Shown piece after piece: positions 7,589-43,129 of a stretch of DNA of 64,000 nucleotides; position 1 is the stretch's first letter, and the number at the start of each line of letters is the position of its first letter. Both the position numbers and the translations under genes were made by a program. The notes under the pieces are model-generated. The model was not told where the DNA came from and did not search any database. It worked only from the letters and a program-made list of their open reading frames with translations. Origin of the DNA: Streptomyces sp. NBC_00442 (GTDB taxonomy: Bacteria; Actinomycetota; Actinomycetes; Streptomycetales; Streptomycetaceae); the NCBI RefSeq assembly GCF_036014195.1, contig NZ_CP107918.1:1550001-1614000 (forward strand), read 5' to 3'.

Positions 7589-7743
7589 TGCCGCCTCCCA
7601 TACGCGGGCAAAAACGCCCAAAAGTGCCTGAATGTTCCCAGAGCACGGTGTTTGTCTGGTGCCACGGGCGCAGCAGAAGCTCACCCCTGGCAGGTTCTGG
7701 ATGCCGCCGATCGGCGACCGCGGGCCCGCGCGGGGCCTCTCGG

Positions 7744-41960: not shown

Positions 41961-42053
41961 CCGTCATCCGGACGCCGATTGACCGGCACGGCCGCTCATG
42001 GTCTACTCCCGAGCGTGACCGACACCGATGTGCGCCTGTGGCGGAGGGTCCAT

Positions 42054-42101
42054 ATGGACCTCGTCCGCTATGCGGGCTGCGTGTGTCGCCCGTCCTGCTG
42101 A
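42054..42101 (+). CDS. cysteine-rich leader peptide (candidate attenuator)
   Basis: A 15-codon frame MDLVRYAGCVCRPSC, stop TGA 42099-42101, with GGAGGG 5 nt upstream of ATG 42054. Three of the last seven residues are cysteine. The frame is open to GTG 42030 and GTG 42015. The longer form adds RRVH before MDLVR, which recalls the RHVDL-type putative leader peptides found upstream of sulfur genes in Streptomyces. It lies 90 bp before the cysteine dioxygenase gene. Ribosome stalling at Cys codons when charged tRNA-Cys is low could control the operon. I see no strong terminator hairpin between the peptide and the gene, so a Rho-dependent or translational mechanism is more likely. Inference only. 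Confidence 0.6.
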   Translation: MDLVRYAGCVCRPSC

Positions 42102-42191
42102 TTCGCCTTTCCTTCGCGCCGTGCCGCAGCGCCCTTGTGCCGCTGATCGGCCGTACGCGCGCCTTCGCGAACTCCCTCAGGACGGTCTGCT

Positions 42192-42725
42192 GTGTCGCTC
42201 CTCGTACCCACACCTGTCAGTACATCGGTGCCCGCCCCCACTGAGGCGGCACTGCTCGACTTCGCCCAACGCACGGCTGCGGATGCCGCGTTGGTCGCCT
42301 CGCTCCCCCTCGACGAAGAGGGACGCACCTGGATTCGTCTCGACGGGCCGGGCGGCAGTGAGGCGTGGCTGATCGGCTGGCCGCCCGGTACCGGTACGGG
42401 CTGGCACGATCACGGTGGCTCTCACGGTGCCTTCGCGACGGCGGCGGGCGCGCTGCGTGAGGACTCGCTGGCGGCCCGGCTGCCCACGGAGGGCTGGAAG
42501 ACGCTGGAGCTGGCCGAAGGGGTGGACCGTTCAAGGGAGTTGGGGGCCGGCAGCGGCCGGGCGTTCGGGCCGCATCATGTGCATCAGGTGCGGAACGAGT
42601 CGGGGACCGGGCATGCGATTTCGGTGCACGCCTACTATCCGCCGCTGCCGCTGATCCGGCGGTACAGCCGGACGGGCGCGGTGCTGAGGGTCGAGCAGGT
42701 CGAGCGTCCGGAGGACTGGAGTTGA
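42192..42725 (+). CDS. cysteine dioxygenase
   Basis: A 177-residue cupin-fold thiol dioxygenase that oxidises L-cysteine to cysteine sulfinate with iron and O2. The start is GTG 42192 with AGGACGG upstream. The iron-binding histidines are in GTGWHDHGGSHGAF and the third in PHHVHQVRNESG. VHAYYPPLPLIRRYS is the typical C-terminal signature. The length is near that of bacterial CDO. Its stop overlaps the start of the rhodanese gene. The upstream Cys-rich leader suggests regulation by cysteine supply. Confidence 0.9.
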   Translation: MSLLVPTPVSTSVPAPTEAALLDFAQRTAADAALVASLPLDEEGRTWIRLDGPGGSEAWLIGWPPGTGTGWHDHGGSHGAFATAAGALREDSLAARLPTEGWKTLELAEGVDRSRELGAGSGRAFGPHHVHQVRNESGTGHAISVHAYYPPLPLIRRYSRTGAVLRVEQVERPEDWS

Positions 42726-43129
42726 GTGCGGAACGTGGCCGGCCGGTGGGAATCGATGAGCTTCTCGAACGGGCCAGATCGGGTCTTGACCGGTTGTCTC
42801 CGCAGGAGGCGTTTGCCGAGGCCGCGAGGGGGGCCCTTGTGGTGGACATCCGGTATGCGGCGCTGCGGGAGCGGGACGGTCTGATTCCGGGGGCCCTGGT
42901 GGTCGAGCGCAATGAGTTGGAGTGGCGGCTCGATCCGCAGGGCAGTCATCGCGCCGCGGAGGCCACGAGCCATGCGTTGCGGGTGGTGGTGGTCTGCAAT
43001 GAGGGGTATGCGTCGTCTCTCGCGGCGGTGTCTTTGCGGGAGTTGGGGCTGTATCGGGCGACCGATCTGATCGGTGGTTTCCAGGCGTGGCGTGCGGCGG
43101 GTTTGCCGGTGACGGGACCGGTTGGCTGA
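42722..43129 (+). CDS. rhodanese-like domain protein
   Basis: A 135-residue single-domain rhodanese. It starts at TTG 42722, which overlaps the TGA of the cysteine dioxygenase gene (TTGA), so translation is coupled. The domain shows ALVVDIRYAALRERDGLIPG and the active-site loop VVVCNEGYASSLAAVSLREL, with the sulfur-carrying Cys in CNEGYAS, followed by TDLIGGFQAWRAAGLPV. It transfers sulfane sulfur, perhaps handling sulfur released during cysteine breakdown. The pairing with cysteine dioxygenase supports that. Confidence 0.88.
   Translation: MSAERGRPVGIDELLERARSGLDRLSPQEAFAEAARGALVVDIRYAALRERDGLIPGALVVERNELEWRLDPQGSHRAAEATSHALRVVVVCNEGYASSLAAVSLRELGLYRATDLIGGFQAWRAAGLPVTGPVG

Follow-up and report, generated by a model that had tools for sequence, protein, structure and literature searches.

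The cysteine dioxygenase gene (CDO1) of Streptomyces sp. NBC_00442 is preceded by a 28-codon open reading frame (ORF) with three Cys codons, the closing codons of which (CCGUCCUG) match the ribosome-binding site (RBS) of the dioxygenase gene (CAGGACGG) as an exact reverse complement, and we think it likely on balance, from sequence comparison and computed RNA folding, that this frame serves as a leaderless translational attenuator that would turn the dioxygenase on when charged Cys-tRNA is scarce. The complementarity between leader end and CDO RBS is new here. The DNA analysed (the window) is a stretch of 64,000 nucleotides from a genome of 7.73 Mb in a single contig, and the closest relatives of the locus, 80 of 80 named CDO loci among the matches listed, are from Streptomyces. 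An initial annotation, made from the letters of the window, had called a cysteine dioxygenase-rhodanese gene pair here, and Pfam agrees, with a PF05995 gene overlapped by a PF00581 gene (Table 1). The encoded dioxygenase has no Cys residue, and we considered this as a sign that the gene is expressed during Cys starvation and dropped it: 146 of 161 close relatives lack Cys, yet so do 21 of 31 distant CDOs. Elsewhere in the window, an nrdJ RNA (Rfam RF03034, 66.2 bits) lies at 7613-7695 on the minus strand and is the only Rfam match at the gathering threshold in the 64 kb.

Table 1. Features of the CDO1 locus (window coordinates)
Feature	Position	Strand	Basis
-35-like element TTGACC	41979..41984	+	sequence; TTGAC box ending 30-31 nt upstream of the leader start at 124 of the 136 loci with a box
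-10-like element TCTACT, 17 nt after the -35-like element, 7 nt before GTG	42002..42007	+	sequence; table of 136 loci
leader ORF, 28 codons and TGA, MTDTDVRLWRRVHMDLVRYAGCVCRPSC, probably leaderless	42015..42101	+	NF042934, 37.1 bits; 142 of 146 places; alternation of GTG and ATG at the start; synonymous and non-synonymous counts
inner ATG frame (C-terminal half of leader)	42054..42101	+	ATG in only 85 of 142
Cys22 codon TGC	42078..42080	+	Cys in 108 of 109 distinct leaders; ribosome here predicted to leave CDO RBS mostly closed
Cys24 codon TGT	42084..42086	+	always TGT (109 distinct leaders); TGT is 15 of 133 Cys codons in the background
putative anti-Shine-Dalgarno CCGUCCUG (codons Pro26-Ser27-Cys28)	42090..42097	+	pairs with 42178-42185, probability 0.99-1.00
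Cys28 codon TGC	42096..42098	+	Cys in 92 of 109 distinct leaders
CDO RBS CAGGACGG, complementary to 42090-42097	42178..42185	+	folding; octamer comparison; window count
cysteine dioxygenase (CDO1), GTG start, no Cys residue	42192..42725	+	PF05995, E 2.4e-44; translation
rhodanese-domain protein, TTG start overlapping CDO stop	42722..43129	+	PF00581, E 1.8e-11; ORF list

The initial annotation had described a 15-codon leader opened by ATG 42054 (MDLVRYAGCVCRPSC), with GGAGGG 5 nt upstream as its RBS and a TGA stop (42099-42101) 90 nt before the CDO start at GTG 42192. These landmarks are all in the sequence, and it is the choice of start and the role of GGAGGG that the alignment corrects. Among 142 aligned leaders the same codon is ATG in 85, GTG in 7 and CTG or CTC in 50, which rules out the inner ATG as the start, and the GGAGGG is part of two Arg codons (CGG AGG) that are kept even at loci where the ATG is lost, so that its service as an RBS is unsupported. 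Every one of the 142 leaders has an in-frame GTG (105) or ATG (37) 8 or 9 codons upstream of the conserved place of Trp (Trp9 here), and in the window this conserved start is GTG 42015; a purine-rich Shine-Dalgarno match precedes the conserved start in just one of the 142. Where a TTGAC box was found (136 loci), it ends 30-31 nt upstream of the leader start in 124, and in 11 of the other 12 the box picked by the script seems to be the -10-like box itself. The -10-like box occurs as TGTACT (50), TTCACT (28) or TCTACT (19) among the 136 loci tabulated. A strict consensus promoter scan of the window called no promoter at the leader. From the promoter-like boxes and the near-absence of Shine-Dalgarno sequences, the leader mRNA is probably leaderless.

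The leader is found before CDO at 142 of 146 places (145 loci and the window; the places come from two locus collections, and some species are probably in both). Of the four places without it, three are contig ends, and at the fourth, L068, the scanned stretch truly lacks the leader; this leaves 142 of 143 CDO1 places with upstream DNA. Counted over CDO loci from named genomes, it is present in 77 of 80, two of the misses being contig ends and one L068. The 142 leaders comprise 109 distinct sequences; two of the leaders, L138 and L142, come from different genera within the same family. Over Arg10-Cys28 the deviations among the 109 distinct leaders are 265 synonymous and 151 non-synonymous, compared with 43:128 for random single changes, and for this reason the peptide itself, as judged from codon substitutions, is under selection; by its conservation the frame is more than a chance occurrence. 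Cys24 is encoded by TGT in all 109 distinct leaders, although the 28 gene-like ORFs of the window use TGT for 15 of their 133 Cys codons; of the other two Cys positions, 22 is conserved in 108 leaders and 28 in 92. The pattern that the initial annotation had proposed to seek in an alignment of such loci, a frame conserved through synonymous substitutions with fixed Cys codons, is thus what the alignment contains. Strong conservation at the DNA level is also seen at 42042-42053 (Arg10-His13, CGG AGG GTC CAT), where the counts among the 109 are CGG 109, AGG 101, GTC 107 and CAT 90; Arg11 is AGG or AGA in 107, and AGG and CAT are minority codons in the window.

The peptide belongs to a described family. 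It passes the curated cut-off of the NCBIfam model NF042934 'putative leader peptide' (27 bits), scoring 38.4 bits when read from GTG 42030 and 37.1 bits in the 28-residue form, so that the RHVDL-type Cys-codon leader suspected before CDO turns out to be a conserved member of this family. The cut-off of NF042933 (Ms5788A, 45 bits) is not reached by the CDO leader (19.2 and 18.3 bits). Seven places in the genome, the CDO leader included, pass the NF042934 cut-off, and there are at least 15 further matches below it among the matches listed. Family-like leaders of this genome precede what we take, from names read by eye, to be cysO-cysM, sulfite reductase and a CysA2/SseC-like pair, and others presumably stand before LLM-type monooxygenases, a dicarboxylate-type symporter, a flavin reductase and further genes, likewise named by eye. 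The leader on the CysA2 side passes the Ms5788A cut-off (46.5 against 45 bits), which ties the Streptomyces leader set to the mycobacterial one. The CDO leader shares with NF042934, NF042933 and NF042936 (Ms4527A) the RxHxDLxR...C core, the leaderless appearance and the UGU at the conserved Cys. It differs from them in the extra Cys residues at 22 and 28 and in that the gene downstream destroys cysteine; the other family-like leaders here that have the conserved Cys, ten in all, carry Ala (8) or Met (2) in place of Cys22, as read by eye.

In the folded mRNA of the window the leader end and the CDO RBS pair with a probability of 0.99-1.00. At least six of the eight octamer pairs can form in 138 of 142 leaders (8 pairs in 109, 7 in 23 and 6 in 6), with a mean of 7.75 pairs in register versus 2.1-4.0 after sliding by 1-3 nt, the 138 leaders having been picked because a GGAYGG site stands in register ahead of the CDO start, a requirement that biases the RBS side of the count. 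The distance from leader stop to RBS ranges from 45 to 252 nt across loci. Counting both strands, the 64-kb window holds nine copies of CAGGACGG, including the two at issue, and from this count the arithmetic chance of such a match within an 84-nt leader is about 0.4-0.5%. Variants that keep the pairing through G-U are seen in five loci (L142, L031, L071, L089 and L157). By eye, two loci (L134 and L136) have leader CCUUCCUG with RBS CAGGAACGG, a matching change on both sides that leaves six contiguous pairs, and a locus from another family (L147) has leader CCCGUCCG with RBS CGGACGGG, a shifted match. Six CCUUCCUG leaders retain the CAGGACGG RBS and so a mismatch, and, with these included, 29 of the 138 leaders have one or two mismatches; true covariation is thin because both pairing partners are nearly invariant. 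The CDO gene that lacks the leader (L068) has a plain AAGGAG as its RBS, which costs 4.3 kcal/mol to open.

The anti-RBS seems to be specific to CDO1 leaders, as far as folding can tell. For 11 leaders of this genome (the CDO leader, nine other family-like leaders and the leader of a second CDO gene described below; L008 and L015 were left out, their downstream start being unclear), cognate and non-cognate duplex energies did not differ significantly (p = 0.28), and a ribosome scan of the ten leaders other than that of CDO1, one of which has no UGU, gave no opening at the UGU codon, unlike the CDO leader with its anti-RBS. A family-wide anti-RBS rule is therefore unsupported, and short matches found by eye in three leaders (L006, L013 and L007) are not claimed in view of these failed tests. 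In the same scan a ribosome at the stop codon ranked 1 of 65 positions in L011 and 2 in L012 and L013. No anti-RBS was established by eye in L138 or in a further genus (g2, 14 genomes), in which the leaders have diverged.

The effect of ribosome position was computed at 78 loci by blocking a ribosome footprint (-15 to +12 around the A site, the standard value) and refolding the RNA. The median cost of opening the CDO RBS is 13.0 kcal/mol with no ribosome, 12.2 with a ribosome further upstream, 11.2 with the A site at Cys22, 6.2 at Cys24, 5.7 at Cys28 and 5.7 at the stop codon. The cost falls by more than 1 kcal/mol at 58 of 78 loci for Cys22, 74 for Cys24 and all 78 for Cys28, and the Cys22 ribosome is not without effect (median drop 1.9 kcal/mol). 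When 42 ribosome positions in the window are ranked by opening, Cys28 is first, the stop codon second, Cys24 eleventh and Cys22 thirty-fifth. A ribosome at Cys24, Cys28 or the stop codon is thus predicted to free the CDO RBS, and one at Cys22 far less so. The earlier idea that ribosome passage frees the dioxygenase start gains a concrete partner in the pairing of leader end and RBS, the release itself being a prediction from folding.

Since ribosomes near the end of the leader are predicted to hold the CDO RBS open, the leader would be a translational attenuator. According to sequence and folding, CCGUCCUG would pair with CAGGACGG and close the RBS; the computation predicts that the helix melts when the A site of a ribosome holds Cys24 (UGU), Cys28 or the stop codon, and that a ribosome at Cys22 ends just before it. 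When charged Cys-tRNA is scarce, the ribosome may dwell on the UGU codon, perhaps with help from the nascent peptide, conserved as RRVHxDLxRYAGC, and this would let CDO and the coupled rhodanese be translated; with fast Cys decoding the helix would re-form and CDO would stay low. CDO would in that case take part in the response to cysteine or sulfur limitation, together with sulfur genes that bear the same leader family, and its role might be to make sulfite, beyond simple cysteine disposal. The initial annotation had reasoned that a cysteine-degrading operon must read Cys-tRNA charging with opposite sign. In the computed geometry slow Cys decoding lengthens the dwell at Cys24 and Cys28, from which the plain prediction is that CDO is on when Cys-tRNA is scarce; this ordinary sign is the simplest reading of the model, and it is the reverse of simple catabolic logic and surprising for a cysteine-destroying enzyme.

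The opposite sign, with CDO on when cysteine is plentiful, is possible with the same helix, because a ribosome stalled at Cys22 would halt just before the helix and one that has arrived at the stop codon would open it, and we consider this sign a serious candidate though an unlikely one. Scarcity would then hold ribosomes at Cys22 with the RBS closed, the median opening cost falling only from 13.0 to 11.2 kcal/mol there as against 5.7 at the stop codon, and this would account for a Cys22 that is nearly invariant in CDO leaders but replaced by Ala or Met in the ten family-like leaders mentioned above. In a variant of this reading, free cysteine or a relative might make the nascent peptide arrest at ...PSC-stop, in the manner of TnaC (see below), a proposal that the conservation of the whole peptide would suit. 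A switch on cysteine excess would also suit catabolic logic and the published expression data discussed below. However, slow Cys decoding at steady state lengthens the dwell at Cys24 and Cys28 as well, both of which open the helix in the computation, and the same peptide family precedes biosynthetic genes. It is a rather doubtful suggestion that the leader is an attenuator run in reverse, in which a sulfur-leader peptide was kept and an upstream brake codon, Cys22, was gained, so that scarcity would turn CDO off and arrival at the stop codon would turn it on.

Attenuation of transcription by Rho, in which translation or stalling on the leader would cover or expose a pyrimidine-rich stretch just after the stop codon, appears improbable: many loci seem, by eye, rich in pyrimidines over the 20-40 nt that follow the stop, and a scan of the window found no intrinsic-terminator-like site between leader and CDO, but the complementarity of leader and RBS would be left unexplained. 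That the leader is an ordinary family member whose match to the RBS is an accident kept by shared ancestry, as its family membership, the little covariation and the lack of visible pairing in other members (duplex test and ribosome scan) would allow, is very improbable, given that the match is kept over 109 distinct leaders and such variable distances and is rarely expected by chance.

Published expression data leave the sign unsettled, and the accessible parts of the two papers concerned do not state whether the CDO genes have leaders. In the feather-degrading Streptomyces shaoguanensis, according to the available part of the report, two CDO transcripts are low from 0 to 48 h and up at 96 h, sulfate-assimilation genes are down at 24-48 h and up at 96 h, cysM does not change, and cystine in the medium peaks only at 144 h, after the rise of CDO (PMC12763843). 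The joint rise of CDO and sulfate-assimilation genes at 96 h hints at a shared signal; the peak at 144 h means that cystine may already have been rising at 96 h. In another feather-degrading Streptomyces, CDO mRNA is reported, in the portion of the text at hand, to be up 50.2- and 8.3-fold in Cys-rich feather medium versus LB (PMC7181669), a rise that fits either sign. The late cystine peak and the rise in feather medium could both reflect induction by cysteine.

A second CDO gene (CDO2, G000:C1:4677235-4677690; L002, L233) has a Cys-rich leader ORF of its own, MSVTAAHRAPHIRGFRSAVQARCCCSSC, which matched no NCBIfam model. CDO2 is present in 98 of 101 genomes of the genus searched, and a poly-Cys leader precedes it at 32 of 33 loci read (the 30 best-scoring of the search plus L214, L216 and L219), with 131 TGT and 35 TGC among the Cys codons. 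When ribosomes were placed at the Cys codons of 32 CDO2 loci, no more than 2 loci showed a fall in opening cost above 1 kcal/mol. A pairing of an upstream GGGUUCC with the RBS GGAACC seemed compensatory in L214 and was dropped, as loci with GGGUCC mostly keep GGAACC (by eye). The poly-Cys leader of CDO2 being unrelated to the leader of CDO1, CDO genes seem, on sequence grounds, to have become linked to Cys codons on more than one occasion. Upstream of the CDO-type genes L208 (G041) and L153 (G123) there are RHVDL-type leaders with other sequences, and a further one stands before a CDO-like gene of a distant family (L190, G366). The diverged CDO leaders of genus g2 (L144, L145 and L221-L232) include some with extra Cys codons, e.g., HLCCTSFCASFCTQG in L227, and 12 of 14 end in UGU-x-x-Gly-stop (by eye). 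Remnants of CDO1 were also met in L148 (G183), L149/L154 (G160) and L150 (G018); two have lost their 5' end and showed no leader, and one is interrupted by stops. Cys-rich ORFs precede 13 of 40 distant CDOs versus 5 of 40 on the reverse strand, where a slightly longer stretch was scanned, and only some of them look convincing.

The closest parallels are the polycysteine attenuators of mycobacteria, leaderless short ORFs with Cys codons before sulfur genes (Canestrari et al. 2020, doi 10.1111/mmi.14498), which, as cited in the accessible parts of PMC9031893, PMC9094748 and PMC13236596, attenuate translation through the speed of the ribosome on Cys codons. The CDO leader resembles them in being a Cys-codon ORF that looks leaderless by its promoter-like boxes and lack of a Shine-Dalgarno sequence; it differs in its three dispersed Cys codons (C-V-C-R-P-S-C), which form no contiguous run of the kind that the CDO2 leader has, and in that the gene it would regulate degrades cysteine. 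Stalled ribosomes in the mycobacterial system are said to block structures that hide the RBS, and folding predicts a like arrangement for the CDO leader, with a structure that hides the RBS and a stalled ribosome that frees it. Cys-rich upstream ORFs were proposed as attenuator candidates in 2015, as stated in the available part of PMC4633059. TnaC, the leader of tryptophanase in E. coli, acts through free Trp, according to the section available (PMC8429421). It differs from the CDO leader, in which the visible switch is the anti-RBS helix. The output of TnaC is Rho-dependent termination, and TnaC has a Pro near its end; the CDO leader is like it in preceding a catabolic amino-acid gene and in having a conserved peptide with Pro near the end. 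Among the eight leaders named in the accessible part of PMC8079986 there is no cysteine leader; the S. lividans 'methionine' leader before metNIQ (metL) given there, MSTTSDRTPATEATTTPGARCMCRRMCAF, carries three Cys residues close to the end and is possibly a leader of the Cys type. No paper on a cysteine dioxygenase leader was found in the open-access literature, judged by titles and abstract beginnings among the matches listed.

The case is a broad one, the leader standing at nearly every CDO1 locus with upstream DNA and CDO2 having a poly-Cys leader of its own. Here a gene for cysteine destruction carries a leader from the family that precedes cysteine-making and sulfur genes, and this forces a choice between two readings. 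If CDO is on when Cys-tRNA is scarce, as we favor, the enzyme would belong to the response to cysteine limitation and the view of its role would change, for example to that of a sulfite producer; if the sign is reversed, a Cys-codon attenuator would be reversible by the placement of the anti-RBS relative to its Cys codons.
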